NCBI RefSeq assembly: GCF_042453785.1
Contig: NC_091673.1
Coordinates: forward strand, 4,781,501-4,845,500
Length of the DNA stretch: 64,000 nucleotides
DNA from: Malus domestica
Taxonomy: Eukaryota > Streptophyta > Magnoliopsida > Rosales > Rosaceae
Direction: 5' to 3'
The notes beneath the pieces are model-generated. The model did no database searches. It saw only the letters and a program-made list of their open reading frames with translations, and was not told the origin of the DNA. The translations under genes were made by a program, and so were the position numbers. This document shows positions 336 through 52,681 of the stretch, in pieces; position 1 is the stretch's first letter; each line of letters begins with the position of its first letter.

Positions 336-3062
336 TCAGGTTGTCTGCAACAGTTCCTTGATATCGTACCCTTGTAGCTGTCACATAAACAAGAAGATTG
401 GTTTTAGCAATGAGAAAGAGTACTTGATGCTTACCCTTCAGCTTCGGAATTCGGACTCATCTATAACCATAACTTACATACTCCGAAATCTTGTTTACCT
501 GAAGGAACGTCAGAAGCAAGATCACTCCTGAGTTCCAGAGAGCATGTATTGTGATGGGAGTTACAAGGTTGCGAGTTTGAGCATACGACAATCCCAGAGC
601 AGTGCCTATACAGACCATAAAGTAAATGAGATAAAAATGTGTTTGATGAAACCTAAAGCACATTAATGTGCGCCTGAGGTGATGCACAAATTTGATTTGA
701 TTACTTTGGTAGACATGCTACCTAGCACAAACAGCTGGGGAAACTCTCCAGGAGTGAGATGTGCAAGTGCAAATACAGCGGCACTTATTACAATAGCCAC
801 TGGTGTAGGTACCCTGCAAAACACATTTTCAACGGCAATAAGATACTCAGGGATGAACACTTGACACCAACAAATGCAACAATACTAAAACAAGTGAAAC
901 TAAAAAGTTTTAAACCCATGCTCAGCCACCTCTCCGAAACCTTATGTAAAAATTTTGTATGATTCTGCCATTCTCCTACATAAGTACCTCAAAAGCAGTT
1001 TCTTCTACCATATATTTCTTATCCTCTACACTATTCCAGCTTTGCTCTTGTTAGTAGAAATATCCGATTCTGGTTGATTAACTCAGAAAATAAGTTTTAG
1101 GAGTGAACCAAATCACACTGTCTGGATGGCAACTTCCTAGTTAAACTAGCCCTCAATTTTCCAAAACTTATAACCAATTCTACGGGTAGTAATTACTGGG
1201 AATATTTATAAACAATTGCAGGCAAGCTTAGAGGAAGAACTGTGCACGTTTATTAGAGAAATTTAGATAGAAATACTCAATCATTTTAGGCATATTATGC
1301 AACTCTATTAAACAGAGAAAAAGGGAAGTATACCATTTAGTCATGGAGACCATAAAAAACCCGCGAAACACAGTTTCTTCGAGAATTGGAGCCAAAACTC
1401 CAGTGATGCCTAGCAAGCAAGCAGTACTGCAACCAACATTAACAAGAGCTTAATCAACTTGCTTAATCCTCAAGTTCTAGTGATGAAAAAGAAAAGACCT
1501 TCTAAAGTACCTAATACCGGACGATCCAATCAGTGGAAGCAAACTTACTAGAGCGTCCTTCTGAAATCATGTCAATATGAATAAAACATATAGTCATGTT
1601 AAAATTATAATTAAAACAAATAATTTGCTTATTAATTCAATCCAGTGTCCATTGCATCCTATAGATAAAGAGATAATAAGATAAATTTGAATAATTCAAA
1701 CCTCTCGTTCTGGGCTCTCCCCCCTCAACATGGACAATGCAGCCCCTGTCACTGCAATAGCAGCTATGGCACCAACAAAACCAATCCCTGCCCACAATAG
1801 CCATCCCTTCTGTAGATTGAAAGGTTCCTTCAAATCTGAAACGGTAAAAGCTCATTATCTCTTTATCAGAAATGGTAATAGCTAATTAATTAACTCAATT
1901 GGCCACAGTCTAGATATAGGCTTTGACAAACCAGAATCTGGCAACGATGAGCTTTCAAATCTAAATTTCGCAACTATATGTTAATGGAAGAAATACAGAT
2001 TACTATTCATTGCAACTCAACAAATCACACATTCTATATATAAGCTACAACAAGAGTTATCTCATTGAGACACTTACCAAAATAATGTTACAACGGGTAC
2101 CCTTTGCCACCGCTTTGCATTGAAGCAATTAACAGTGAGCAGGGTGAACGACAATCCAACAAGAAGAAAATTTACGAGTGTGTTTGTGTTTGTGTTTTCG
2201 TTCTAGGATAAAGAAATAAATTGGAAAAAATCAGTACCGTAGCGATAAACATCTTCAGGCAGTGGTTGGTAAGTGTTGGCAACGGTATATAGAACAGCAA
2301 GTACAGCTGCAGTTGTAATACTAGCGAAACAATAACCAAACCAATCAGACCACGTCGAAATTCGCTAAGCACGGTTATAAACACTGCAAAAGAGCTCCTG
2401 CAAGTAGAATTACAATGTGATTACGCATTACCCTTGATCAAGAAACAGTATCTCTGCCTTCTCATCCAAACTCAAATCCTGAATTCGAATTCCTAAATAC
2501 GGTATAGCTGCCGCCTCTACCAGTCCTGTCAAAACAAAACTGCCTGGGACAAAAATTAATCTTTCTTCTTCTGAATTGTGATAGTAACATTTATAAGCTA
2601 ATTAAACACTAAACCCACCTCAGCCCACAAGCAAGCGATGTTAACGACGCCGTTTGCCATTCCCAGGGGACATCCCACCGCTTCAAAATCAGCCACTGCG
2701 ATTCATTTTCCTGATAATTTCACCCCAGGATGATTACTTTAAAGTTGAAATGATTACTTTAAAGTTGAAACTCTCTCTTCTTAATCTGGGTTCTCTTGGT
2801 TGAAGCTGAAAGCGAGTACCTTTTCTTGGAAATCGCCTTTGGGCTTTCCTCCGCCGCTGAAAAAGCAAATGTACGGCGGATTTCTGACGTTTCTGAGCCT
2901 TGAAAGCTGGGTCGATCGGCGCGGCGAGAAGCCGGCGGTGAAGCTTCTGCGGCCGTCGAGAAAAAGGGAGGGGATTTGGGTTTTGGAGGAAGTTGGCTTG
3001 GGTGAGTCCGAGAAGCAGGAGAAGGAAGATTGAGCTACAGATGTGAACAGCGTGCACACCAT
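336..3062 (-). CDS. CPBP (CAAX/ABI-type) intramembrane metalloprotease, plastid
   Basis: A membrane glutamic/metallo-protease of the CPBP family, relatives of type II CAAX prenyl proteases; the plant substrate is generally unknown. Ten exons join in frame: 3062-2820, 2710-2619, 2539-2432, 2320-2238, 1835-1702, 1560-1511, 1426-1334, 813-722, 605-499 and 377-336 (stop TGA), giving 347 aa. An in-frame ATG at 3098 would add 12 residues. The first ~65 residues are rich in Ser, Arg and Pro and look like a chloroplast transit peptide. Family motifs are visible: the catalytic EETVFRG in exon 7, the second-motif FALAHLTPG in exon 8, and the terminal NLVTPITIHALWNSG with the conserved His and Asn in exon 9. 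Several hydrophobic helices are present. Length and exon phases match the Arabidopsis At1g14270-type protein as I remember it. No breaks seen. Family is certain; plastid location is inferred. Confidence 0.92.
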
Positions 3063-3098
3063 TGCTGGTTTTGATATTGTATTCGAACTTTTAAGCAT

Positions 3099-3876
3099 GC
3101 AGAGAATTGCCGAGCAGCGGGAGAGACGACTGTTTGAGCAGGGGGATAAGGCTGGCCTGAGGTTTGCATAATTTCACTTTTCACCCCGTAATGTTTCTAA
3201 AATTGCATTGAGCTCCCTGTGAAGTGTGAACAAGTTGCTTGGGCCGTTTGGGTTTGGCTAAACTCCTTTGATGGACTCCTCCGTTGTAGGCTGGTATGAC
3301 CAGGCCTAGGTGGGCTTTTTGGTATTTTGGGCCTCAGGCTGATAATCCGCTCGTGAAGGCTTTCACTCAGATGTTTTTGAAATCGAGTCGTTTGATAAAC
3401 ATTTCAATTTAGATTTTTAATTTTCTATTTTTTTTGTTAGATTTGAGGGCAAATATAGAAGAGAAACAAGGGATACATGGCGGGAGAGATTTAGAAGAAA
3501 TCAATAAGAAAATGGATGCAAAATTGACTTCCCTCACATCTTAAACATAATACATGAAAATCAAACCCTAAAAAATGACGTGGTTATAAAACGGGTTATT
3601 GACTTCTCAGTTTTACAACTGCTATTTGATACTTCATAAAATATATATCTTATACTCATCATTTATTTCTTTGTCACTTTGTTTGCAGGTGACTAGTATA
3701 TTAGGTTCGTAAAATCATCCGCAAACCAAATGTACAAGTCAAGACGTAGTTTTATTGCTATAACTTTTATGTCTATACTTGTGATTCTTGTAGCTGGCTC
3801 GAGCTTAACCATTTTTTTTTTTTGGAAAAATAATAATATTGTAAACTATTATAGTTTATGGTGAAAATTCTAATTT
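3099..3876. other. intergenic spacer upstream of the CPBP protease gene
   Basis: Promoter side of the minus-strand protease gene. The first ~230 bases are fairly GC-rich and the rest is AT-rich. I see no ORF with codon-like composition and no RNA gene. Confidence 0.5.
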
Positions 3877-4066
3877 TTTTTTTAACAAATGATATTATCT
3901 ATACTAAGTAGAAGGGGTGAGATTAATCTCACAATGAGTTACCAGTAATGTGGTTAAATTCGCATTTGGTGAGAATCGAACATACAAACTCTTACTTACA
4001 AATGAATAATCTGAATTTAAATGCGATGAGTCGAATACTCTACCTTATCCAAGTGCCCTAACTCAC
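3877..4066. repeat. dispersed repeat, SINE-like, copy 1
   Basis: Begins with a T-run followed by AACAAATGATATTATCTA and contains GGTGAGAATCGAAC near its middle. A second copy with the same order of motifs lies at 29411-29552. One end is a homopolymer and the body resembles a tRNA-derived T-arm (GAATCGAAC), so a SINE read from its reverse strand is a reasonable guess. No target-site duplication was established. Confidence 0.5.
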
Positions 4067-4132
4067 ATTTGTCAGTATAACATAAATTAATAAGATATAA
4101 TAATGCACATATCTTCGTCTGTATATTTATAT

Positions 4133-4330
4133 GGATCAGGATCCTCTCCTGAGCAGATGGAGAGGATCCTCCTGACCAGGCCCATCGGGCCGTTCATTTT
4201 TTATCCAACGGCTACAAACAGGGGGTCCTCTAAAAGTTATAATAATTATAACTGTTGGATAAAAAATGAACGGCATGATGGCCTTGGTCAGGAGGATCCT
4301 CTCCATCTGCTCAGGAGAGGATCCTGATCC
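4133..4330. mobile_element. 198-bp palindromic MITE with 9-bp target duplication
   Basis: The two halves are near-perfect reverse complements: it starts GGATCAGGATCCTCTCC and ends with the inverse. The arms continue about 75 bases each, through CATCTGCTC and then ATTTTTTATCCAACGG. It is flanked by a perfect 9-bp direct repeat TATTTATAT (4124-4132 and 4331-4339). A 9-bp duplication points to a Mutator-like transposase in trans. The 74-aa ORF inside is a by-product of the palindrome. Confidence 0.9.
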
Positions 4331-4339
4331 TATTTATAT

Positions 4340-6514
4340 AACCTCATGTTTTCTTTGTTGTCCGACCTAACATATGACCAAATGGACCACCATTTGTAAT
4401 TAAATGGTTCCAAGCCAACTTCCCCCAAATTTAATTTCTAATTATAAATTATTGGAATTTGGAATGGAAGCTGCTAAGTAGGATCCTCTTATCATACTTT
4501 AATTTAATATTTGATAATTCATGTGGAATTGAAATAATTCAGCAGCTTGATCCGATCTAAATCCGGCAAACTCTCTGACCGATTGGAGAACAAGGGAGCA
4601 AAGTGAGTTGCGTTCATGTTTTTGAGTCAAAATAAAATATGCATAAAGTCGTAGGACAAATAAACTAATGAGATGAAACTTGTAATGGTAGGGGAATGGG
4701 ACATCGTGGTCACCCACACAATCTCTAGTCTATGTACAAAGCCAAAGTCCATTTAATATGCTTTTTTTAACATGTACGATATTATTTACAGTATGTATGG
4801 GAGAGCGAGTCAAGATTCATAGTAAGCTAGCTATAATAATTTGGTATGAATTCTGTTTTGGCAAGAATCAAACTGAAGAAAAATATTAGACCGTAGTATA
4901 AAACGGCAAAAGCAATCTAATATTTATCAATTTTAGTAATTTTGAAAGGAGGTTTGAATTTATTAATCATGGTGTTGCTTGGCTATTGCCGCCCTATCGG
5001 TATTTGATTCCTTTTTGTGTGTTGTATTTGTAATGATCCCATTGCCTCATTGCTAAACCCTACTAATCAATAACATGCCATTTGTACATTGAGTTTTTTT
5101 TTTTCTCACCATCCTTAGGTAGTAAAAGTAGGCTTTTTTTTTTTTATTAATAATCCTTTCAACTCCATTTCATGCTTACTTTACTCTCTAAAATAAAACT
5201 ATCGTCACTTCATACTCTAAAACTCAAGTTTCACTTTGAAAAGATTCCTCCATTTGGTGAAATGTTCGTCAAATATACTGAAGTGCAAGAAATCTTGCTG
5301 ATGTGCACACCCTACGTTTGTTTCTGACAATTAAATCAAATGAAGTCAAAAAAATCAAAACCAAACAAAAAGTGCAAATACTTTTTTGATTTGATCCTAA
5401 ACCACGCCTCATAATTTATCTATGTTCATGAGAATTCTCAAATATTAAGAAAATTTGCTTTTTCACCTTTCATTATACACAGTATGTAATCGGTGACACT
5501 CAATGTGGAGATGGTATATATGATAAGTTGATCGATCGTGGTAGGCTTTAGCTTTAGGGAATTTGTTTGGATCAAACAAAATTCTATACATTGGAGCAAT
5601 TTGAACATCTCTAGATCTAGTTTTTAAATGATGGTAAATTTAACTTTATGAAAGTCATGATTATTGAAATGGACTTTAATTATATAGAATTAAAGCTGAT
5701 AAATGTTATTTAGTCAAACTTTGAAGAATGTAATAATGTATGAGAGTGGTGGTCTATGTTAGGTGATACGCCATATGCCTATAAGTCGTCCTTGCCATCT
5801 CCTATGAGAATCTGAGTGCTGGGTGAGGATTTTGCCTAATCATTTTGATTTTTTACTTTACACATGAAAGTTGATCATTAATCAAAGAGTGCAACTTTGC
5901 TCACAAGGGTGATGGTCACTCTTGTTGATTATTATTAGATTAGTTTGGTTTAATTGATTTAATATATAGATCTCGAAATTTAAACTAATATAACTGAAAT
6001 CCATAAAAGGATGAGCATCACCCTTAATTAGTGTTTAAAATATCGGTATTGATAGAAATATGGATATGTAAATGGGATGAAATATCGATGGATATATCAA
6101 ATATCGACATTGGTGGAAATATCGATATGCATATTTAAAATGAAACTTTAGGAATTGTCAAGCGTTGGTTTGAACGAAATATAAGAGTTTCTCCAATATT
6201 AAACAAATGTGTTAGAAATATCGACGCTATATGTCAATTTTAACCTAAACTTAAGAGTTTATCTGATACGAGGTGAAGTTTAGACTTCACCGATTCATTC
6301 TATTTCCATATATTTTTCTGATTTTTTTTATATTCCTATGGAAATATCAGTCGTTTCGAACAAATTTTAAACTCTACCCTCAATTCAAAATGAAAAAAAA
6401 ATGCGCTTTTAAAAAGTTGTTTTTATATCAAAAACGCTATTTATACCATTATTTATACAGTAGATATAAGACTCATATGTATTAGTGAATTCTATCTATA
6501 TTAAGAAGAGAATA
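4340..6514. other. AT-rich intergenic spacer
   Basis: No plausible gene. 6033-6215 has a cluster of degenerate ATATCGATR-type motifs (for example GAAATATCGATATG) that may be a decayed tandem repeat. The rest shows only homopolymer runs. Confidence 0.45.
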
Positions 6515-6519
6515 CAAAC

Positions 6520-6857
6520 TGTTTATACCATATTTAGAGCCTCGTATTTAGACATCGTATAAATACTCGGGGAACTTAAATGTAATTATGTAATAAAGGA
6601 ATGGGCAAATATGTAATTATGGGAGGAGCCCTTATTCTATAAAATGGCCTCCTCACCCTCACAAACGGAAAGGCCTCTCCTATCTAGAGCAAGGCTCTCA
6701 CACTCTCTCCCTCACTTCTCAGAGAATACAATACAATCAGTGTGGAGGTAGCCCAAACCTTGGGGTGAACCACGATAACTCTTGTGTCATTTACATTACT
6801 TGCAAATTCACGGTCGGATTTACATTGTTCCAAGACCTCCGGTTTTGTGCATCAACA
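6520..6857. mobile_element. solo LTR, 338 bp
   Basis: Starts TGTTTATACC and ends GTGCATCAACA, the canonical TG...CA ends, and is bracketed by a perfect 5-bp duplication CAAAC (6515-6519 and 6858-6862). Inside are a TATA box (CTATAAAATGG near 6636) and a pyrimidine-rich stretch of CTCTC repeats after it, the layout of U3 then R. No internal retrotransposon sequence is attached, so this is the product of LTR-LTR recombination. Its last 11 bases equal the end of the large retrotransposon LTR at 37148-37662, so the two families are probably related. Confidence 0.88.
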
Positions 6858-37147: not shown

Positions 37148-37662
37148 TGTTTGTACCATACTTGACCAATCCCGAAACTACTGAGCACCGGTCAACGTTA
37201 TACTGTCAAGGACCCAAAAGAGTTTCCCTCCAACCAGGAGGCAAATCACAGTGTGACACTTGTCGACATCAAAAGCCAATCATAGCGCGACACGTGTCAA
37301 CATCAGAAGCTAATCATAACACGACACGTGTCAATGTTAGAATGAAACTAGAAACTCTCTTCTATAAATAGAGATCATTCTCTCACAATATTGGCTAATG
37401 TCATTTGTACTAAATCATTCACTTGTACTCACTAAAGGAGAGCTTGAACCTATGTACTTATGTAACCCCTTCACAATTAATGAGAACTCATCTACTCCGT
37501 GGACGTAGCCAATCTGGGTGAACCACATACATCTTGTGTTTGCTTCCCTATCTCTATCCATTTACATACTTATCCATACTAGTGACCGGAGCAATCTAGC
37601 GAAGGTCACAAACTTAACACTTTCTGTTGTACCAAAGTCCGCACTGATTTTGTGCATCAACA
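37148..37662 (+). repeat. 5' LTR, 515 bp
   Basis: TGTTTGTACC...GTGCATCAACA. U3 holds three ~37-base tandem units (37247-37340), two of which contain the palindrome GACACGTGTC (a G-box core). A TATA box CTATAAATAG follows at 37362-37371. Confidence 0.93.
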
Positions 37663-37769: not shown

Positions 37770-39228
37770 ATGGGGAGCGAGGGAAGCCATAGCACACAGA
37801 ATGACACCCCTCTTGCACCTAGTGCGAAGCAACGAAAGAATGAAGGAAAAAGGGTTGCTCTTCAAGCTAAAGTCGATGAGCTAGAAGCTCAGAACAACAA
37901 GATAGCAATGAAGAATGAAGTCCTCCAGGAACAGTATGAGAAGCTCTTTCAGACGCTCCATGAAACTAGGCGTACTCAAACATGCGAGCTCGTTGCCCCT
38001 GTGGATATCAACCATCATTTGGGTGCCCCCCAACACGGAGGGTCACCTTCCTTCGACATGGGTATCCCTGATGAGGAGCAAGCTAATCATCAAAACATTG
38101 ATCAACGTGAGACTTATCTCAACCTAACTGCTTCGACTCGAAGCAGAAGAAGTGGAGGAAGACACCTCCTTGCAGAAGGGTTGGAAGGATCGAAAACCGT
38201 TTATCGTGACTGCCGAGACTTCCTAAAGCAACATCGAGAGAATCCCCTCCACATATGCTCGAAGATCAATGACCCAAGGGTTTCTGAAAGACTTGGTCCC
38301 CTCTCACGACCCAGGCCGGCTGCCAATCTAGGGAATGAATGACATGTCCTAGAGGAACACGAAGGTACATGGGACTCTAAGGTATTCTGACAGACTCGCC
38401 CTAGAAGTCAGTACGACGAGTCCAAGGAAAAATCACACGCCCTTACTCAAACTTTCCTACTTCCAAGAGGCGATGGAGACTTACGAAAGAAAATCCCAGT
38501 GGCACATGACTCCACTCAAGATCCCCTTGTCCTACAGCTCATTGAGGAAGTAAACAAGTTGAAGGCCGAACGTCAGGCCGAGATACCTGACTAGAACCAA
38601 CCCAGGCCTGGCCCTTTCACAAAGAGGATCATCGACACCTCCTTCAAACGAAGACAAAACAAAAGCTTGGTTTACAACTCTATACTGGAAGGGATGACCC
38701 AATTGAACATCTTAACCTCTTTGAGTCCACCATGGCATATCGGATGCACACCGACGAATAGCGATGTCTTCTCTTCCCTTCCACCCTCTCTGGCGGAGCT
38801 CTAAACTGGTATTGCCATCTTCCACCTGAGACAGTAGACTCATTTGAGGAACTGAGGAAACTGTTTGTCTCTCAACACATATTCCAGACCGATCGCTTGC
38901 ATTTTGCAGATGACTTGTACACTATTCACCAGAAGCTGGACGAGTCACTACGAGAGTATGCGGGTCGTTTCAACCATGAGTATTCTCGCTGCGCTGAGGC
39001 ATATGACAAAACCGCCCTTAAGGCCTACGTGATTGTTTCTTCAAGTACATGATCAATGCCAACACTTAGAAGACTTACTCTGAGGTGATGGCACAAGCTT
39101 ACAACCATGCCTCCGCTGAGGCAAGGACATATTAAGGGAAACCCCCCACAACCACCCCTTATCAGCAAGTAGGGAGTGGAAGCCAGATCCAACCAAATGA
39201 GAATACCTCGACCTTCCAAACGGCAGCG
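37770..39228 (+). pseudogene. retrotransposon gag, broken
   Basis: ATG at 37770 opens a frame with a Lys/Glu-rich coiled coil (about residues 28-65), then stops at 38340-38342. Capsid-like phrases continue in later segments (LSGGALNWYCHLP, SFEELRKLFVSQH, LDESLREYAGRFNHE) interrupted by stops near 38694, 38760 and 39066. A CCHC-like knuckle (FCCYHEHNGHDGDKC) lies in the next open frame at 39568. Confidence 0.8.
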
Positions 39229-42200
39229 GTGCCTCCCCCTGCCTTACTTAATACTTTGCCAAGTCAAAAGACATATCAATCTCAGGGCAAAATGAAAGAT
39301 TTCCATCCTCACCAGTCTCATTTTAATTCAAGGAGTAAGGGACAATACCACGATAATCAAGGGTATCGCCATGATAATCCCCAACCCCAGGCAGTCAACA
39401 CAGTGGGTCAAGCACGTGTCAGGACAGCGCCTACCCCGAGGTATGAGGCATACACACCTTTTAACGCCACATGCGTGGCCATTTACCCCAGCATAGCACA
39501 CCTGATACCGAAGCCAAAGCTAAGACACCCGGATTACAAGCCCACAAAGAACACAGGCACGTTTTGCTGCTACCACGAGCATAACGGTCATGACGGCGAT
39601 AAGTGTATCACCATTTGTGATCATATTGAAGCTTTGGCACGTGAAGGAAAAATTGATCAATTCCTCCGTCACCCTCTAAGGGGTAACCGTAACCAATGGC
39701 AGGTGAATGTGATATATTCCATAAGTGGTGGCATACCCATATCTGAATCTTCCAACATGGCCATGAAAAATAGCGAATGTGCTTTAAGGTCTGGCCACCA
39801 AGTGTTTCACGTGGAAGACATCAGGGGAGGTAAGCATCAAAAGCCTAACTGGGATCTAATATGTTTCTACCCTGAGGAAGAAAGATGGATCATCTACCCT
39901 CACAACGACCCACTCATCGTGGAAGCTCACATAGCCAACTTTGAGGTACGACGAATCCTGGTAGACACGGGGGCTTCGGTCAATATCATGTTTGCTGAAG
40001 CTTTCAGGGCACTTAATGTAGCTGAACACTTGCTCGATCGCTTGATTTCCCCTCTGATAAGCTTCTCCGGTGATATCGTGCAACCTTTGGGGAGCATACA
40101 CTTACCTTTCACCATTGGTACAGGCCCTTACACATCTACCATTACCACTAACTTCCTGGTGGTTGATTGCCCAACGGCATACAATGTCATCTTCGGATGC
40201 ACAGGCATCAATGATCTCAAGGCCATGGTATCCACACATATGTTGTTGATGAAATTTCCAACCCCTTATGGTCATGGTTACATCAGAGGAGATCAACTTA
40301 GTGCATGATCATGTTACAACATTTCGGTCAAGCAACAACACTTTCTTGTGCCCAAGGAAACCATTTCTATACATGACCAAGTCATAAAGACCAGCCCAGA
40401 CGAAACCAACTTAGATCTTCACGGTGGCAACAGTCAACCTGACGATCATCGAGATGACTCTTTCACCCAGTAAGCACAACCCGCTGAAGAGTTGGAGAAG
40501 GTCTCTATCTCAAAAGATTATCCGGATCGCATGGTGAAGATTGGCACCACCTTGTCACCACCTATTCGGTTGGCATTGATCTCTTTTTTGCAAGAGAACA
40601 CTGAGGTCTTCGCCTGGTCATACGAGGACATGCCAGGCATCTCTCCCGATATCATCTGTCATCACTTAAGTATTGACCCCAAAACCAAGCCAGTGAGACA
40701 GAAGCGAAGATCTTATGACGCTGAACGGTACGAGGCAATGAAGGCAGAAGTTGAAAAACTCAAAGGCATAAGCTTCGTCTGCGAAGTCAATTATCCAACG
40801 TGGGTAGCAAATGTTGTCATTGTTAAGAAGAATCCGACCAAGGAAATTCTCCTGCTCCAAAATGTCTTGTGGAGAATGTGTGTCGATTACACCGACCTAA
40901 ACAAAGGATGCCCGAATGATAGTTTTCCTCTTCCTCTCATAGACAGACTTATAGACTCTACGGCAGAGTGTGAACTTCTGAGCTTCATAGATGCTTACTC
41001 AGGATACAACCAAATCCTCATGAACCCTCCGGACCAAGAACACACAGCCTTCACTACTGACAGAGGACTATATTACTATAAAGTCATGCCTTTCGGCCTA
41101 AAGAATGCAGGAGCGACTTATCAGAGACTGGTCAATTCAATGTTCGCTGAACAGATTGGGAAGAGCATGGAAGTTTACGTTGATGATATGCTAGTCAAAA
41201 GCAAACATGCTGACCAACACATCACCAACCTATCTGAAACTTTCACCATTCTGAAGAGGTATCGAATGAGGTTGAACCCCAACAAATGTGCCTTCGGCGT
41301 AGGCTTTGGCAAATTCTTAGGTTTTATGATAAGCCAACGAGGCATTGAGGCTAATCCCGAGAAAATCAAAGCAATCCTCGACATGAAGGAACCGGTAACT
41401 TCAAAAGACATCCAGAGCTTTACTGGCAAGGTGGCAGCCTTAACTAGGTTCATCTCTAAGGCCACAGACAGATGTGCTCATTTCTTCAAAGTACTTAAGG
41501 GAAGTAAGAAGTACATTACATGGACTGATGAATGTGCTAAGGCATTCAAGAACCTCAAAGACTACATGAGTAAAGCCCCTTTGCTCTCCAAACCTGAGGT
41601 TGGTGACACTCTTATTATCTATCTGTCGGTATCAGCTTCAGCAGTAAGTTCCGTTCTTATTCGAAAGGATGGTAATGTTGAACGGCCTATCTACTACGCT
41701 AGCAAGGCCTTAGAAGATGTGGAGACACGATACTCCAACATTGAGAAATTGGCTCTAGCATTTGTCATGTCTGCTCAAAAACTTCGCCCTTACTTCCAAG
41801 CACATTCCATCATCGTGCTTACCAATCATCATCTTCGACAGATACTCCAAAGTCCTGACACTTCCGGACGAATGATCAAATGGGCGATAGCATTGGGTGA
41901 GTTTGACATCTCCTACCAACCAAAGCCAGCTGAGAATGGCCAAGCAGTGGCAGACTTCATCGCCGACTTCACAGCCGACTTCACATATCCTGTTGACATT
42001 GTTTCTACGCCTAAATAAGTGGTTTCATTACCCTCGGAAACTCAGAAAATAGAACCAACAACCCCAGCATGGAGTCTATATGTTGATGGCTCGTCCAACC
42101 ACCAAGGTTGTGGAGCAGGACTAGTCCTTACGACCCCTGACAAAATGGCGATGGAGTATGCTCTTCGTTTCAAATTCAAGGCGTCGAACAATGAGGCCGA

Positions 42201-43777
42201 ATATGAAGCCTTCCTAGCAGGCTTACGTTTGGCCAAACACCTTGGGGTTAAACGAATTGATATCTTCAGTGACTCCCAATTGGTGGTTAACCAGGTCACC
42301 AACAACTTTGACGCTAAAGATAGCTCCATGGCAGCATATCTGGCACAAACACAATTATTGCTCAAGCACTTCCACTACCAGATCACCTAAATTCCTCAAG
42401 CGGCAAACAGTCATGCAGATGCTTTGGCTCGCCTCGCCTCAGCGGTGGAAGACAAGATTAGGAGAAAAATTCAGATCGAATTGTTGGCAGCACCAAGCAC
42501 CATGGCTGCGGAAATGTGCAACTTACAACAAGGAGATAGTTGGATTACCCCGATTTATAGATTCCTTGCTCATGGCACCCTTCCAAATGACAAAGTCCAA
42601 GCTAAGCAGATTCGATACAAGGCTACCCGTTACTTGATCATTAATGACCAACTTTACAAGCGAGGTTTTAACCTACCATACCTAAGATGCCTTACGCCAG
42701 CAGAGGCGGAAACTGTCCTTCGGGAAATACATGAAGGAGTCTGCGGAGATCATGCTGGATCTCGATCCCTAGCACACAAGGCTTTTTGCCAAGGATATTA
42801 CTGGCCAACACTCCACCAAGATGCCATCAGAATATCCCGCTCATGTGACAAGTGTCAACGCTACGCAACTATTCCTCACTCCCCTCCCGAGCCGCTAACT
42901 CCTATGATCAGCCCTTGGCCCTTCACCCAATGGGGACTTGATTTGATCGGCCCAATGCTTGCAGGGAAGGGCAAGGTTCGCCATGCAATCGTTGCAGTTG
43001 ACTACTTCACAAAGTGGGCCGAAGTAGAACCCTTGGCAACCATTACTGAGGCAAAAAATAGAAGATTTTGTATGAAATAACATCCTTTGCAGATTCGGCA
43101 TTCCCAATGCGATAGTCACTGACAATGGGCGACAGTTCGACAACAATAAGTTCAGGATGTTCTGTTCTAAGTTCAACATCAACTTATGATTTGCCTCCCA
43201 AGCTCATCCCTAGTCTAATGGACAAGTTGAAGCCATCAACAAAATAATCAAGCGAACTTTGAAAACCAGCTTGGACAAGGCTAAAGGTTGTTGGCCAGAA
43301 TTTGTACCCCAAATTCTTTGGTCATACCGCACTTCGTATCGGACATCAACAGAAGAAACCCCATTCTCACTTGTCTTTGGTACAAATGCAGTTGTCCCAG
43401 TTGAGCTTGAGCAAGCAACGTTCCGAGTCTAGAACTACGTGCAAAGCGAAAATGACAAACAACTTACCCTCAACTTAGATCTAGTTGAGGAACACAGAAA
43501 CCAGGCTCACTTGAGGAATGTCGCCTACAAGCAGCGCATTTCCAACTACTATGACTTAAGGGTCAAACCTCGTTCTTTCAAAGTAGGGGACTGGGTATTG
43601 AAGAAAAGATTACTCTGCGACAGAGTCCTGAGTGAAGAAACACTTAGTCCAAACTGGGATGGACCGTTTGAAGTTGTTGACATCAGTCGCCCTGGCTCCT
43701 ACAAGCTTAGAAACTCTGATGGCAAGACACTTGGCCATCCATGGAACGCTGATCACTTGAAGTACTATTACAAGTAA
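39229..43777 (+). pseudogene. retrotransposon pol: protease, RT, RNase H, second RNase H, integrase; broken
   Basis: One frame runs from 39229 to about 43055, interrupted only by stops at 40306 (TGA), 40471 (TAA), 42016 (TAA) and 42388 (TAA). Protease: LVDTGASVNIMF (39959-39994). Reverse transcriptase: CVDYTDLNKGCPND, MPFGLKNAGATYQR, catalytic YVDDML (41176-41193). RNase H of the usual type follows (KALEDVETRYSNIEK). The second, plant/archaeal-type RNase H has YVDGSS and SNNEAEYEAFLAGL. Integrase: zinc-binding H-H-C-C (42730-42860), WGLDLIGPM, VTDNG and SNGQVEAINKIIKRTL, so the DDE residues persist. A frameshift at an A6 run near 43053 and further stops at about 43187, 43213 and 43430 follow. 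The last open frame (43439-43777) is the C-terminal GPFEVV...HPWNADHLKYYYK segment. Confidence 0.9.
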
Positions 43778-44109
43778 ACTGACATTGTATAAGTGTTAAG
43801 CTTCAGCCGTTCGGCATCTTATGTAACGAAGACTATTTGGCATGAATTCAATAAAGAGGTGATTTAGACAACTTGATCCTAATCCTCTTACATTCCTAGC
43901 AATGAAACACTCGAGGTTCAAAGCTTCAACATGAATGCTTCCAACATGAAACAAAGCCTAAGTATATGTCAACAAGACTATACAAATAAACGAACAGCTT
44001 CACAGTATATCCGTTCAATCATACATTCCAACACATTCATACATAAGCCAACTGTGTTTTGAAAGGGTTCAACATATTTTGTGTCATTTGACACTTGCTA
44101 CAATGTGCC

Positions 44110-44700
44110 TAGACACCTTGCCCTTATTCTCACCAACCAGATGATGAAATGTGAAGAAATAACTCATCTTCATGCCACCAACTAGGTGATGAAATGTACA
44201 ACCCGTACTCTAATATCATTTGGCAACTTGCCACTCATGCCACCAACCAGGTGATGAAATGTACAACCCGTACTCTCCTTCATACCACCAACCAAGTGAT
44301 GAAATGTACAACCCGTACTCTAATATCATTTGGCAATTTGTCATTCATGCCACCAACCAGGTGATGAAATGTACAACCCGTACTCTCCTTCATGCACCCA
44401 ACCAGGTGATAAAATTTACAACACGTACTCTAATATCATTTGGCAACTTGCCACTCATGCCACCAACTAGGTGAAGAATGAACTCATCTTCATGCCACCA
44501 ACCAGGTGATGAAATGTACAACATGTACTCTCCTTCATGCCACCAACCAGGTGATGAAATGTACAACCCGTACTCTAATATCATTTGGAAATTTACCATT
44601 CATGCCACCAACCAGGGGAAGAAGGAACTCACATTCGTACCACCAACCAAGTGATGAAAGCAACTCACCATTCACTCCATCTACTATAAGACGAGTGGTA
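44110..44700 (+). repeat. tandem repeat array 1 in the retrotransposon
   Basis: About ten imperfect copies of a unit CATGCCACCAACCAGGTGATG followed by AAATGTACAACCCGTACTC. Short (~47 b) and long (~63 b, with TAATATCATTTGGCAACTTG) forms alternate. Confidence 0.9.
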
Positions 44701-44929
44701 CAACTTGTACATGTGAACTCCTAACATTCACAAATAATAAAAAACCCCCAAGCTTGACAACTCAACTAGGGGAGCACTTATGCCCAACAAGAGTTATAGT
44801 CACCAACAAAGTCTTATTGCAAGCCAACAGCAACTTCAATGCATGGCATACGAAGATCAAGCTATTTAGCTCTTTTGCATCTGCTTCAAACATTTCCTCT
44901 CTGTAACAATGCAAACACTACAACTCGTA

Positions 44930-45600
44930 GAAAGCTTCACACACTCTTGATCAAGACAGTGTGAAGCAAAACCAATTTATGGTGCCAACAAGAGCTTCAT
45001 CAATGGAGGGCAACCACAATTCTCAAAAGCTTCACACACTCTTGATCAAGACAGTGTGAAGCAAAACCAATTTCTGGTACCAACAAGAGCTTCATCAAAT
45101 GAGTTCAACCACAATTCTCAAAAGTTTCACACACTCTTGATCAAGACAGTGTGAAGCAAAACCAATTTATGGTGCCAACAAGAGCTTCATCAATGGAGGG
45201 CAACCACAATTCTCAAAAGTTTCACACACTCTTGATCAAGACAGTGTGAAGCAAAACCAATTTATAGTGCCAACAAGAGCTTTATCAATGGAGGGTAACC
45301 ACAATTCTCAAAAGCTTCACACACTCTTGATCAAGACAGTGTGAAGCAAAACCAATCTATGGTGCCAACAAAAACTTCATCAAAAGAGTTCAACCACAAT
45401 TCTCAAAAGCTTCACACACTCTTGATCAAGACAGTATGAAGCAAAACCAATTTATGGTGCCAACAAAAGCTTCATCAAAGGAGTTCAACCTTAATTCTCA
45501 AAAACTTCACATACTCTTGATCAAGACAGTGTGAAGCAAAACCAATTTATGGTGCCAACAAAAGCTTTATCAATGGAGGGCAACTACAATTCTCAGACCT
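44930..45600 (+). repeat. tandem repeat array 2, ~95-bp unit, seven copies
   Basis: Units start near 44932, 45029, 45124, 45219, 45314, 45410 and 45505. Each holds CTTCACACACTCTTGA directly followed by TCAAGACAGTGTGAAG, an almost perfect dyad, then CCAATTTATGGTGCCAAC and CTTCATCAATGGAGG. Confidence 0.93.
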
Positions 45601-45769
45601 TCGAAGCAAATTCAATTTATATGGTTCATCCAAACCTTCGACTACTACAAGGTGTGGCTTGCATCATAATCTATTGCTCAACAGTGTGGAAGCAAAATTT
45701 GTATATGTTGTCTCTCCCACATTTTCAAATTTCTAGTTTTCCACAAAAAAAAAGGGAAATTCAACAAAG

Positions 45770-46180
45770 CTTCATCAATGGAGGACAACTACAAATTCTC
45801 AAAAGCTTCACACTATCTTGATCAAGATAGTGTGAAGCAAAATCAATTCATGGTACCCAACAAAAGCTTCAACTCCAAAGTTTCACCTACAAAGCTTCAA
45901 CTCCAAAGCTTCACTAACAAAAGCTTCATCAATGGAGGACAACTACAAATTCTCAAAATCTTCACACTATCTTGATCAAGATAGTGTGAAGCAAAATCAA
46001 TTCATGGTACCCAACAAAAGCTTCAACTCCAAAGTTTCACCTACAAAGCTTCAACTCCAAAGCTTCACTAACAAAAGCTTCATCAATGGAGGACAACTAC
46101 AAATTCTCAAAATCTTCACACTATCTTGATCAAGATAGTGTGAAGCAAAATCAATTCATGGTACCCAACAAAAGCTTGAC
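45770..46180 (+). repeat. tandem repeat array 3, 154-bp unit
   Basis: Two full and one partial copy at a 154-base period (45778, 45932, 46086). Each includes a perfect 32-bp palindrome whose left half is CTTCACACTATCTTGA. Neighbouring units are almost identical, so this array is the youngest. Confidence 0.93.
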
Positions 46181-46660
46181 CCATAAAAGCTTGACCTACA
46201 AAAGCTTGACCCACAAAAGCTTGACCCATAAAAGCTTGACCGACAAAAGCTTCACCTACAAAAGCTTCACACTATCTTGATCAAGATAGTGTGAAGCAAA
46301 ATCAATTCATAGTGCCTAACAAAGATTGACCTACAAAAGCTTGACCCATAAAAGCTTCACCAACAAAAGCTTGACCCATAAAAGCTTGACCCACAAAAGC
46401 TTGACCCATAAAAACTTGACCTACAAAAGCTTGACCCACAAAAGCTTCACCTACAAAAGCTTCACCCACAAAAGCTTCACCTACAAAACTTCAACACAAA
46501 AGCTTCACCTACAAAAGCTTCACATTATCTTAATCAAGATAGTGTGAAACAAAATCAATTCATGGTGCCCAACAAAGCTTCAACCTCAAAGCTTCACCTA
46601 CAAAGCTTCAACACCAAAGCTTCACCTACAAAGCTTCAACACCAAAGTTTCACCTACAAA
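46160..46660 (+). repeat. tandem repeat array 4, 15-16 bp unit
   Basis: More than 20 copies of AAAGCTTGACCCATA, AAAGCTTCACCTACA and similar. Two further copies of the palindrome sit inside (46267 perfect, 46520 with changes). Confidence 0.92.
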
Positions 46661-47120
46661 ACTTTAAAATATATATATATCTATTTTTTCGGAAATTCGA
46701 AAATTCAAAAAAAAAAAAATCGAAAAAAAAATTTTAAAAAAAAAATTGCCTAGGCCTCTTTTTCTTTGGTTCTAACAACTTTCATAACAAATATATATAA
46801 AGAAGGAGTTTTGGGCTACCACTTAGAAAGGAAATGCCTTATTCATCAACTCCCTTGACCGGAGACTTAGGGGACTCCTACGATATGCTATTGCACCTTG
46901 ATACTCGGAAGTCTCACAACCACTCAGTGACTTGAATTTTTCAAGTCTTCAAACGAGAAGTTTTCCTCACTCGGGAAATTAAGGGAGCACTACCTCAACC
47001 TACATGCTTCACTCACAAAGCTTCAACATACAAGTTTCAACAAAAGGAAAAATTCAAAGAACTTAGTGAAGAAGGCCTTGGTGTATTTAACACAATACGT
47101 TGAAATGAAGCAAAGCTTGT

Positions 47121-47126
47121 TTATTG
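47121..47126 (-). terminator. poly(A) signal of the antisense gene
   Basis: AATAAA on the minus strand, about 70 bases after the antisense ORF stop (ORF end 47193). Position and sequence fit a plant near-upstream element; functional use is inferred. Confidence 0.5.
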
Positions 47127-47192
47127 ATATCTCTAATAAGTTACAAATATGTACATATACATAAATCAAAATAAATAAACAAGAGGAAGCTT

Positions 47193-47867
47193 TCACAAAG
47201 GTTGCTCAGGAGAAGTCTCAGCAGTCGGCAGAGCCCCAGATTGAGGAGGCACCATAAGGTGATTATTCGGAGCCTCAGTACTAGGCAGAACCCCAGAAGG
47301 AAGAGGCACCGAAGGTTGATTATTTGGAGCTTCATTACGCAGTACAGCCCTAGAAGACGAAGGCAATAAATGCCTTTGGAACAAACCCACAAACCTCTGA
47401 TGATCAAGTAAAATCTGACCATCAGATTTCTGCAGCTGGTCGAGCTTCCTCTTCATGTTTGTAGCATAGTCATGTGCGAGCCTGTGCAACTGTTTATTCT
47501 CATGTTTGAGCCATCTGATCTCCTGCTTGAGACTTATCACTTCAGCCACCAATGATTTAACTTGGCGGGTTCGAGCAAATAAGCGTTGGGCCATATTAGA
47601 CACAGAACCTGCACACTGAACACTGAGAGCCAGAGAATCCTTAACAGCCAACTCATCAGACCGTTTGGAAAGTAGTCTGTTATCTTTGGGAGTGATAAGG
47701 TTCCTGGCCACCATCGCAGCGGTCATATCATTCTTCATCACAGAGTCCACAACAGTAAGATGACCAGTAGGGGATAAGAATGATGGGTGCCATATGTTGT
47801 CTTGAGAATGCATGGCTGCCTCTTCACCAAAGTTCAAGTCAAAACGACGGTCGGATGGGCCAGACAT
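47193..47867 (-). CDS. antisense accessory ORF of the Tat retrotransposon, coiled-coil protein
   Basis: An intact 224-aa frame, antisense to gag-pol, between integrase and the 3' LTR. I start it at MSGPSDRRFDLN; an in-frame ATG at 47900 would add 11 residues. Residues ~98-148 form a strong heptad coiled coil (VKSLVAEVISLKQEIRWL then KHENKQLHRLAHD). The C-terminus carries two copies of a ~21-residue Pro-rich unit (EAPNN...PSGVLP / EAPNN...SGALP). No enzymatic motif or membrane segment. Tat-lineage elements are known to carry additional antisense ORFs of unknown function, and I recall near-identical hypothetical proteins in plant databases. It is uninterrupted although gag and pol are broken. 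A TATA box upstream and AATAAA downstream make a complete transcription unit. Function unknown. Confidence 0.75.
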   Translation of the reverse strand: MSGPSDRRFDLNFGEEAAMHSQDNIWHPSFLSPTGHLTVVDSVMKNDMTAAMVARNLITPKDNRLLSKRSDELAVKDSLALSVQCAGSVSNMAQRLFARTRQVKSLVAEVISLKQEIRWLKHENKQLHRLAHDYATNMKRKLDQLQKSDGQILLDHQRFVGLFQRHLLPSSSRAVLRNEAPNNQPSVPLPSGVLPSTEAPNNHLMVPPQSGALPTAETSPEQPL

Positions 47868-47975
47868 TCTCAGAAATGATGAAGGAGAAATGAGGTGCAA
47901 TAAATATCTGAATTAAGGGGAAAATTCCTACAAGCAATAACTGTCTGAATGTACTCATTGCACATAATTGGTGCC

Positions 47976-47981
47976 TTTATA
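47976..47981 (-). promoter_or_regulatory. TATA box of the antisense gene
   Basis: TATAAA in CTTTTATAAAGGCACC on the minus strand, 109 bases before the chosen ATG (47867) and 76 before the alternative one (47900). This spacing would give a leader of ordinary length. Confidence 0.55.
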
Positions 47982-48039
47982 AAAGAAAGGGCAACATGGC
48001 CGTTGATTTAAAAATCGAAGTGGCACCACTCTTTGGATT

Positions 48040-48985
48040 CCGAAGAGGCACCACTTTCCACACGCAACATCAGCTCCTCGGGTACCACAGATAATTTTGC
48101 CAAAGATCTCTGACAAAGTTTAGACACATAAATTTTGAAGGTCCAGTTACCCTACTATTACCCACAAGGGTAAATGAACACCACCATTGCTTGATAACTA
48201 AAAAGTCTCAATGTGTGTCAACCTCCGTGTTCCGTGGCAAGGCAGATTGGTAAAAATGCCCAACCTTTACTCACATTCGAGAAAACACTCCCAACAAGAT
48301 TGCTTTCTCAAAAATCTAAGATGCACCGTTCTCTGAATCTCGAGAGCCAGATCCCTGACAAGATTACTTGTTCGAAAACCGAAGAGGCACCGCTCTCCGA
48401 ACTTCGAGAGCCAGATTTCCTTAGATAAAGCTTGTCTGCAATCTTCACATACAACATCAGCTTTCCAGATACCACAAACCATTTTTTCAAAGCGCTCTGA
48501 CAAAGTTAAAATATGTGAAGCTTGCAGCTCCCACTACATTGCTATGACCAAGAAGGGTAAAGGAATAACATTATTACTTGCTCAAAAATCGAAGAGGCAC
48601 CGCCCTCCGAATCTCGAGAGCCAGACTCCCAACATGATTACTTTCTCAAAAATTGAAGAGGCACCGCTCTCCGAATCTCAAGAGCCAGACTCCCAACAGG
48701 ATTACTTTCTCAACAATCGAAGAGGCACCGTTCTCCGAATCTCGAGAGCCAGATCCCCGACAGGATTGCTTGTTCGAAAACCGAAGAGGCATCGTTCTCC
48801 GAACTTCGAGAGCCAAATTTCCTTGGATAAAGCTTGTCTGCAATCTTCACACGCAACATCAGCTTTCTATATACCACATACCACTTTTTCAAAGTGCTCT
48901 GACAAAGTTAAAACACGTGAAGCTTGCAGCTTCCACTACATTGCTATGACCAAGAAGGGTAAATGAATAGCATTACTACTTGTTG
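48040..48985 (+). repeat. tandem repeat array 5, ~400-bp and ~64-bp units
   Basis: 48436-48580 is repeated at 48845-48985 (AACATCAGCTTTC, GCTCTGACAAAGTTAAAA, CACTACATTGCTATGACCAA), with a more divergent third copy at 48066-48180. Between them is a 62-66 base unit with GAAGAGGCACCG and CGAGAGCCAGA in at least five copies. Confidence 0.9.
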
Positions 48986-49603
48986 TTAGGGAGACTTCTA
49001 TATATGTTGACCTTCATCCTTCACGGACAAGCAGACTTGCAAAAATGCTTAACCCTTCCAAATATCTGAGAGGAAACCAGAAAACCCTCCAGCCCAGTTC
49101 AAGAATAAACCTGTGGAAAGTTACTTCTTTAAAAGCAAAAGTATCTCATATCATCTCTTCTCCATTTGCTTCTCCTTATCCTTGTTGCTGTTTACGACAC
49201 AAGGAGAATGAGAACTATCAACCGGAAGCCAAAGTCGAACCTCTAATCCAGGTTGCTTGCTTGGAAGTCTGATTGCTTACCTTGTCTGTTACCTCTTTCG
49301 GAAAATCTCCTAACTCGGCAACTTGGGGGACTCATACTATAGGGTTTTGTATCGCACTTGACCAAGCTCGAAACTACAAGTAAGCTTCAAGTGAAATTGA
49401 TACATTACCTTGTGCATCTTCATCGATTAAAGATACCACCCCTGGATGAAGGAAAAGTACTTATAGAGAAGATACCACATCTACATATGAGACAGATAAG
49501 GCAAGTGAAAATGATATCACACTTCGGTACTTAGAAGTTTCGTGATTACTCAATGGCTTAGATCTTGCAAGTCCCCAACCGAGGAGCTTCCCTCACTCGG
49601 GAA

Positions 49604-49616
49604 CTTAGGGGAGCAC
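49604..49616 (+). other. polypurine tract before the 3' LTR
   Basis: TTAGGGGAGCAC immediately precedes the TG of the 3' LTR, where plus-strand synthesis would be primed. Similar TTAGGGGACT / TTAAGGGAGCAC / TTGGGGGACT copies lie at about 46867, 46980 and 49322. Confidence 0.7.
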
Positions 49617-50131
49617 TGTTTGTACCATACTTGACCAATCCCGAAACTACTGAGCACCGGTCAACGTTATACTGTCAAGGACCCAAAAGAGTTTCCTTCC
49701 AACCAGGAGGCCAATTACAGTGCGACACGTGTCGACATCATAAGCCAATCATAGCGCCACACGCGTCAACATCAGAAGCCAATCACAACACGACACGTGT
49801 CAATGTTAGAATGAAACTAGAAACTCTCCTCTATAAATAGAGATCATTCTCTCACAATATTGACTAATGTCATTTGTACTAAATCATTCACTTGTACTCA
49901 CTAAAGGAGAGCTTTAACCTATGTACTTGTGTAAACCATTCACAATTAATGAGAACTCATCTACTCCGTGGACGTAGCCAATCTAGGTGAACCACGTATA
50001 TCTTGTGTTTGCTTCCCTATCTCTATCCATTTACATACTTATCCATACTAGTGACCGGAGCAATCTAGCGAAGGTCACAAACTTAACACTTTCTATTGTA
50101 CCAAAGTCCTCACTGATTTTGTGCATCAACA
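49617..50131 (+). repeat. 3' LTR, 515 bp
   Basis: Same length as the 5' LTR and ~96% identical by eye. It retains the GACACGTGTC units (49720-49805) and a TATA box at 49832-49839, and ends GTGCATCAACA. Confidence 0.93.
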
Positions 50132-51456: not shown

Positions 51457-52681
51457 GGGTAAAAGACTGTTTACTACCCTCATGTTTTGTGGTTTTCAAC
51501 ATTTAGTACATTAAGTTTTTTTCGTCTCAGATTCATACCTAAAGTGTAAATTTTGGGACAGTTTCATACATCCGTTAGTCAAACTGTTAAATCTGCCGTT
51601 AATTATGACGTGGCGCCATGACTGGGCGCCACGTGTCATCCACGTTTTTTTTTTCTTTTCTTCTTTCTTCTTCTTCCTTCTTCTGCAACTTTTTTTTTCT
51701 TCCTTCTCCTTCTTCCTTCCTCCTTCTTCATTCCCCTTCTTCTCCTTCTTCCTTTTTCTTCCTTCTTCTTCCTCTGAATCTGGGGAAGTTTTTTTTTTTT
51801 TTCTTCCTCCTTCTTCCTTCTTCTTCTTCCTCCGAATCTGGGGAAGATGAAGGTTTTTTTTTTTTCTTCCTCATTCTTCTCCTTCTTCTCCTTCTTCCTT
51901 CTTCCTTCCTCCTTCCTCCTTCCCCTTCTTCTTTTTCTTCCTTCTTCTTCCTCTGAATCTGGGGAAGATGGAGGTTTTTTTTTTTCTTTCTTCTTCTTCC
52001 TCCTCCTTCCTCCTTCCTTCTTCTTCTTTTTCCTCCTCCGACTGCAACTTTTTTTTTTCTTCCTTCTTCTTCCTCCATCTTCTTCTCCTTCTTCCTTCTT
52101 CCTTCCCCTTCTTCTCCTTCTTCCTTCTTCTTCATCTTCCTCAAAAAAAAACAAAAAAAAAACCTTCATCTTCCCCAGATTCGAGGAAGAAGAAGAAGAA
52201 GAAGAAGGAAGAAGAAGAAAAAGAAGGAAAAAGAAGGAAGAAGGAAGAAGAAGAAGAAGAAGGGGAAGGAAGAAGGAGGAAGAAAAAAAGAAGTTGCAGT
52301 CGGAGGAAAAAGAAGAAGAAAGAAGAAAAAAAAAGAAAAAAAAAAACTTCCCCAGATTCGGAGGAAGAAGAAGAAGAAGGAGAAGGAGAAGGAAGAAGAA
52401 GGAGAAGAAGGAGAAGAAGGAGAAGGAAGAAAAAAAAAAGTTGCAGAAGAAGGAAGAAGAAGAAAGAAGAAAAGAAAAAAAAAAGAAAAAAAATGTGGAT
52501 GACACATGGCGTCCAGTCATGGCGCCACGTCACAATTAACGACAGATTTAACAGTTTGACTAACAGATGTATGAGACTGTCCCAAAATTTACACTTTAGG
52601 TATGAATCTGAGACGAAAAAAACTTGATGTATTAAATGTTAAAAACCACAAAATATGAAGATAATAAACAGTATTTTACCG
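51457..52681. mobile_element. 1.2-kb fold-back element with TTC/GAA arms
   Basis: Terminal inverted repeats of about 190 bases: left GGGTAAAAGACTGTTTACTA..., right its inverse ending TTTTACCG. Both arms include GTACATTAAG/CTTGATGTA, GGGACAGTTTCATACAT and CGTGGCGCCATGACTGG. It is flanked by TATTTTTTT on both sides (51448-51456, 52682-52690), a 9-bp though low-complexity duplication. The middle is ~500 bases of TTC/CTT-rich pyrimidine strand then ~350 bases of GAA/AAG-rich purine strand, so it can fold into one long hairpin. Four copies of an interspersed CTGAATCTGGGGAAG-type spacer show it grew by tandem duplication. The long Arg/Lys/Glu or Ser/Phe/Leu frames here are artefacts. Confidence 0.85.

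Follow-up and report, generated by a model that had tools for sequence, protein, structure and literature searches.

The window (the whole 64,000-nucleotide stretch of Malus domestica DNA that was analysed) carries a high-copy LTR retrotransposon with an open reading frame of 224 residues on the strand opposite to gag-pol. It has long been known that Tat elements carry antisense ORFs, to which no role has been assigned (PMC7264820, PMC11963269), and the initial annotation read the present one, together with a TATA box and a poly(A) signal, as a complete transcription unit. The question was whether this frame is a gene that was kept by selection, and what its product may do. The relevant features are collected in Table 1.

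Table 1. Features of the element and its antisense unit, in window coordinates
Feature	Position	Strand	Details
5' LTR	37148..37662	+	515 bp, TG...CA; ATACG immediately before
Broken gag-pol	37771..43777	+	Retrotrans_gag, RVT_1, RT_RNaseH, RVT_3, Integrase_H2C2; in pieces
Second RNase H (RVT_3)	42019..42390	+	E 1e-15; between RNase H and integrase
Tandem arrays with 12 copies of a 34-bp palindrome	44934..46550	.	0 expected (100 shuffles)
AATAAA of antisense unit	47125-47120	-	50/50 copies
Antisense ORF, 224 aa, ATG start	47867-47193	-	ORF reading, shuffles, selection tests
Pro-rich tail, residues 168-224, with 19-codon duplication	47196..47366	-	Low model confidence
Predicted long helix, residues 60-167	47367..47690	-	AlphaFold2, single sequence
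Leucine zipper L106-L113-L120-L127	47487..47552	-	Conserved in A and in B + L090
TATA box (TATAAA) of antisense unit	47981-47976	-	TATAA in 47/50 copies
64-bp-unit repeats and 294-bp duplication, upstream of antisense promoter	48287..48982	.	Repeat listing
3' LTR	49617..50131	+	515 bp; ATACA immediately after

Judged by its domain order, the host is a Retand-type Tat element (Ty3/gypsy) with both LTRs. The LTRs differ at 21 positions, 13 of them transitions, and a gag-like frame begins about 110 bp after the LTR. Profile matches in the sense pieces run gag, RT, RNase H, second RNase H and integrase zinc domain, with RVT_3 standing between RT_RNaseH and Integrase_H2C2. A second RNase H (aRH) in this place marks the angiosperm Tat lineages Ogre and Retand (PMC6317226), and the Tat-group placement of the initial annotation was thus borne out. 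The region from pol to the 3' LTR measures 5839 bp (survey range 2933-6566, PMC11963269), and an antisense ORF in such a 5.84-kb region fits Retand as described there; its 675 bp reach the 600-bp cut of that survey and miss the 250-codon cut of Neumann 2019 (PMC6317226). About 13 stops, or 13 stops and 3 frameshifts, were counted by eye from the frames of gag-pol. Taken over the entire polyprotein, the statement that every sense ORF is broken is true, but an open stretch remains in RT-RNase H (40474-42018). A sense-strand AATAAA lies at 43850-43855, about 75 bp past the end of pol and long before the 3' LTR, and an early end of the gag-pol RNA at this site is possible. Just outside the element, a large inverted repeat (51458-52680) has 205-nt arms that are 91% complementary, with purine/pyrimidine-rich repeats inside.

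A minus-strand frame of 224 residues was reached in 0 of 1000 dinucleotide shuffles of 43778-49616; on the plus strand of the same shuffles, the largest frame was 224. The ORF, TATAAA and AATAAA stand in the order first described, with the AATAAA one base off its first placement, at 47120-47125, and another minus-strand AATAAA hexamer lies inside the ORF at 47498. At the homologous sites, TATAA was present in 47 of 50 near copies, and the ATG and the AATAAA in all 50. The exact TATAAA is private to the window copy (0 of 39 relatives, which mostly have TATAAG), and two diverged loci described below, L090 and L092, have TATAGAGG at the TATA position. The first of the window's two upstream ATGs recurs in 1 of 16 other copies and the second in 0 of 16; one more copy has a different ATG there. 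Raw diversity of the TATA block was 0.015 versus 0.04-0.06 at the codon positions of the ORF, but as support this conservation is marginal with base composition allowed for (permutation p = 0.044), and 66 of 814 contiguous 28-bp windows were at least as conserved. The initial annotation had pointed to the intact frame beside broken sense ORFs. It was rejected as evidence and the contrast carries little weight, since intactness is near chance: at the sense lesion rate (lesions read by eye), a stretch of 675 bp stays free of lesions with a probability of 0.17-0.23, or about 0.2, and 22 of the 50 near copies are intact. The probability of escaping nonsense changes alone, from the LTR divergence, is 0.64. 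No relatives were found in viral_contigs and genome_contigs.

Near copies were chosen by similarity to the query. A DNA search gave 39 others at 94-95% identity in the best 40 places of 4161 first-look candidates, and a protein search gave others at 85-91% in the best 150 of 10176 candidates; 66 of these 150 places, the window included, were without an internal stop (hand count). The 69 fetched loci (39 + 30) came to 50 distinct copies including the window after repeats of one place were dropped, and these are called subfamily A. Their singleton variants were distributed over changing, silent and nonsense classes as 40/19/3 versus a neutral 40.4/18.6/3.0 for C-to-T, and as 85/20/5 versus 85.6/20.9/3.5 for transversions. 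Small classes of shared changes other than C-to-T leaned silent (20 N, 14 S in total). Changed cells made up 7.3% at CG, 6.2% at CHG and 0.7% at A/T sites, and the high CG and CHG values probably mark methylated, silent copies. The recent A copies decay like neutral sequence. Pairwise comparison of 40 near copies gave a pN/pS of 0.74 over 780 pairs, with 0.49-0.85 in the five control frames, and was set aside. The initial annotation had held that a dN/dS near 1 across copies, or a frame broken in most relatives, would refute the idea; among the recent copies the ratio is neutral, which by that yardstick would have refuted it, and 28 of 50 frames are broken. The near copies form a star-like burst of dead copies and therefore cannot test selection on a live lineage.

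Older lineages were reached by two degenerate patterns requiring conserved residues and silent changes, which found L090, L091 and L092. L091 is a decayed copy close to A. The best 40 places of 5407 candidates in a DNA search with L092 were a second subfamily, B; 14 were fetched and, with L092, 15 of the 40 scored places were used. A tree of 67 sequences set the 50 A copies and L091 (support 0.95) against B and L090 (0.998), and within the latter B (0.994) against L090. For the A/B comparison 184 of the 224 codons were used, and L090 and L091 were excluded from the counts of fixed differences.

Near-fixed differences between A and B were N14:S21 versus an expected 24.9:10.1 (ratio 0.27, p = 5e-5). 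A slightly different count gave p 1.5e-4, near-fixed thresholds of 0.6 and 0.9 gave p 1e-4 and 0.0026, and without the 18 search-pattern codons the count was N13:S19 versus 22.9:9.1 (p = 1.6e-4). Helix codons 60-167 alone gave N6:S14 (p 3e-4), and N-terminal codons 1-59 alone gave N7:S6, which is not significant (p 0.07). Over 200 random halves, the middle 90% of N/S ran from about 14:22 to 16:20, and N reached twice S in 0. Shared variants were N9:S26 in B versus N220:S94 in A (p 6e-7), and B singletons were N44:S31 (p 0.07). Pairwise pN/pS was 0.22 within B, 0.23 from L090 to B and 0.61 within A (0.23, 0.27 and 0.62 without the pattern codons). Four of the five other frames used as controls lay at 1.85-3.05; sense frame 1 was low (0.36, p 0.0027), which is taken as a mirror of the wobble positions because that frame has 10 stops in the window. 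The aligned codons were stop-free in 15 of 15 B copies and in 23 of 50 A copies, and the raw frame had a stop within the first 600 bp in 3 of 16 B or L090 sequences. With a replacement/silent ratio far below 1 between lineages, these counts show that the antisense gene is protein-coding, as first proposed, and that it was under purifying selection while the elements replicated. The decay of dead copies and the selection on live lineages separate cleanly, so the protein mattered during element replication.

The protein was modelled with AlphaFold2 from the single sequence (mean pLDDT 66); 10-residue blocks average 85-97 over residues 81-160, and the ends are of low confidence. The model predicts a single long helix, which holds a leucine zipper, and a Pro-rich tail that is loose. 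The helix is longer than the coiled coil of about 50 residues described earlier. Residues 100-127 have L,L,L,L at the d-positions and V,V,I,N at the a-positions, and all eight are identical in 16 of 16 B and L090 sequences and in 48-50 of the 50 A copies. An Asn at an a-position is typical of parallel dimers. The heptad periodicity was matched by 5 (42 residues), 2 (56) and 50 (28) of 2000 helix shuffles; the motif L-x6-L-x6-L-x6-L is present and is by itself common. Upstream of the zipper, N91-x7-R99 recalls a bZIP basic region but lies three residues out of the usual bZIP register. The bZIP family model had no match at E <=10 (window protein) or at E <=1 (two B proteins), and profile searches of the same three proteins gave no match to known silencing-suppressor families. 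Weak Pfam matches of the protein were to coiled coils of mixed function, and among solved structures searched with it the best E was only 0.48. The Pro-rich tail is duplicated as first noticed (57 bp, 19 codons); between its two repeats, 8 codons show replacement and 3 show silent differences, so that the tail looks loosely constrained.

A related ORF was found behind a different pol. The antisense ORF of L090 stands tail to tail with an open integrase frame (L090:1-1377), and the two stops are about 250 bp apart. This integrase matches rve and Integrase_H2C2 and is 30-37% identical to the integrase pieces of the window; upstream of it, the roughly 105 residues that come after RT_RNaseH contain no RVT_3. 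The lack of a second RNase H before the integrase places this carrier outside Tat, and by its motifs it looks Athila-like. A 451-bp junction query was scored in the best 40 of 3269 candidates, L090 included (82-100% identity). The passage from the integrase end into the antisense ORF was spanned in 40 of 40 scored places, with at least about 100 bp of integrase in 36, and the junction is therefore an established multi-copy arrangement, not a single nested insertion. From the ORF end through the promoter and further, L090 and L092 resemble each other; the likeness of both to the window element returns at about 49.1-49.2 kb, and that of L090 near 49.5 kb as well. The simplest account would be a recombination of an Athila-like 5' part with a Retand-like 3' part. 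In global alignment, the 5' flanks of A copies did not match L092 better than shuffled sequence did, and this comparison was set aside. Since a related ORF occurs behind a very different pol, the gene may well be of use independently of the replication machinery that accompanies it. The minus-strand translation of L092:2818-3024 resembles the end of a RALF peptide, and a piece of a host gene may lie near or inside the L092 copy.

Several known systems resemble this arrangement in part. Retand antisense ORFs (PMC11963269; eORF-3'R of Neumann 2019, PMC6317226) share with the window ORF the antisense strand, the place between pol and the 3' LTR, the tandem arrays beside it and the second RNase H, and others among them match coiled-coil models such as Smc (PMC11963269). 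The difference lies in TRP28 (PF04195), which 97% of the clusters in that survey carry and two clusters lack (Vicient 2025, PMC11963269). TRP28 (Transposase_28) had no match in the window protein at E <=10, and none was seen when the minus strand of 43777-49616 was translated in three frames, with stops written as X, a search in which most matches above about 0.1 are removed by the HMMER filters. The same genome has at least 24 TRP28 matches at E <=1e-3 among the best 150 of 420 candidates scored, and 14 control genomes have 0. As for a relation to TRP28 proteins, none was found, and 12 fetched TRP28 loci held no relative of the window ORF.

As told in PMC7264820, the maize element Grande carries gene23, an accessory gene that is read antisense from an internal promoter of its own and codes for a nuclear protein; the window gene is likewise antisense and accessory, with an internal promoter predicted from sequence. 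HBZ of HTLV-1, which lowers proviral sense expression, is also an antisense gene toward the 3' end of the provirus with a leucine-zipper product, but it starts in the 3' LTR, and its product contains both bZIP and activation domains (PMC10186651). Its likeness to the window gene would be convergence, and no descent is claimed. Accessory ORFs are common to different retroelement types in bdelloid rotifers, where ORF3 likewise represents one accessory gene type with unrelated pols; ORF3 codes for enzymes and env-like proteins (PMC5408684), whereas here an antisense zipper protein goes with Retand-type and Athila-like pol. Antisense ORFs in Retand are already known; searches of open-licence PMC papers turned up no antisense zipper protein that is both under lineage-level selection and common to an Athila-like family.

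Our reading, held tentatively and at a little under an even chance, is that a Retand-type Tat element carries an antisense accessory gene, equipped with a TATA box and a poly(A) signal, for a coiled-coil zipper protein that acts in trans. The gene would be transcribed from the internal promoter, and the protein would dimerise via the leucine zipper, enter the nucleus and, in the manner of HBZ, regulate the transcription or chromatin of the element and its relatives. By trans action from its own promoter, a few expressed copies could serve many, which would explain a gene with two kinds of pol. A regulator is favoured by this promoter, by the occurrence with more than one pol and by a layout like that of HTLV-1 HBZ and Grande gene23; against it stand the lack of a bZIP match, palindromes unseen in the L090 and L092 flanks, and the fact that coiled coils are also structural. 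Alternatively, the protein could serve the replication cycle itself, not transcription, as a coiled-coil adaptor of the particle or of the pre-integration complex, for assembly, entry into the nucleus or chromatin tethering. The selection on the protein, the long modelled helix and the weak Pfam matches would agree with this, and a Vpr-like role is discussed in PMC7264820. A structural part should, however, track one gag-pol lineage, and the related ORF goes with two very different pols; a separate antisense promoter would also be an odd supply route for particle parts, and we consider an adaptor unlikely.

Trans action would be useful to any lineage also if the protein countered host silencing (Argonaute, methylation or dsRNA factors) for related copies, and the strong CG/CHG decay indicates that copies were silenced, but no known suppressor family was matched and this explanation seems quite unlikely. 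The initial annotation had also suggested that an antisense transcript alone could limit sense RNA. Such an RNA, limiting sense RNA or yielding dsRNA with the ORF incidental, would agree with the promoter and poly(A) signal in order and with antisense RNA roles discussed in PMC7264820; it does not predict the excess of silent over replacement changes between and within older lineages. Since the protein was under selection, an RNA-only role is insufficient and is judged improbable, although an RNA role may exist in addition to the protein. A functionless frame that is open by chance is highly improbable: neutral N:S:X among the 50 near copies, their broken majority and the near-chance intactness in the window would suit it, but ratios of 0.2-0.3 for A against B (p 5e-5 to 1.6e-4), within B and for L090 against B, and a length that beats shuffles, argue against it. 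The zipper offers a concrete activity for testing. The regulator reading can be extended, doubtfully, to a plant Ty3/gypsy system that is HBZ-like by convergence, in which an antisense cassette (promoter, zipper protein and a 3' region toward the LTR) became common to Retand-type and Athila-like lineages via recombination and its dimeric product controls the transcription or silencing of the carriers in trans. If true, the cassette, not pol, would link unrelated families within one genome.

Candidate targets for a dimeric regulator lie beside the gene. Just beyond its 3' end, a 34-bp palindrome (GCTTCACAC...TTGATCAA...GTGTGAAGC) recurs in units of several lengths, 95 and 154 bp among them, with perfect copies at 45805 and 46264, and the 12 palindromes would suit a dimer. 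At least one was present within the retrieved flank in 44 of 50 A copies. The proposal that the protein binds DNA or chromatin and acts on repeats of its own element is kept alive by the zipper and the palindromes, but no palindrome was seen in the retrieved flanks of the diverged L090 and L092, and the palindromes were rejected as a conserved target. In sense RNA, the palindrome would form a hairpin. About 300-550 bp past the ORF end of L092, another small inverted repeat, distinct from the palindrome (GTTAAAGCT...AGCTTTAAC), is present a few times over, and subfamily B may have an inverted-repeat array of its own. On the other side of the gene, the word GGTGCCTCTTC, read by eye, is common to the 64-bp repeats, the promoter region and the duplication in the ORF tail.
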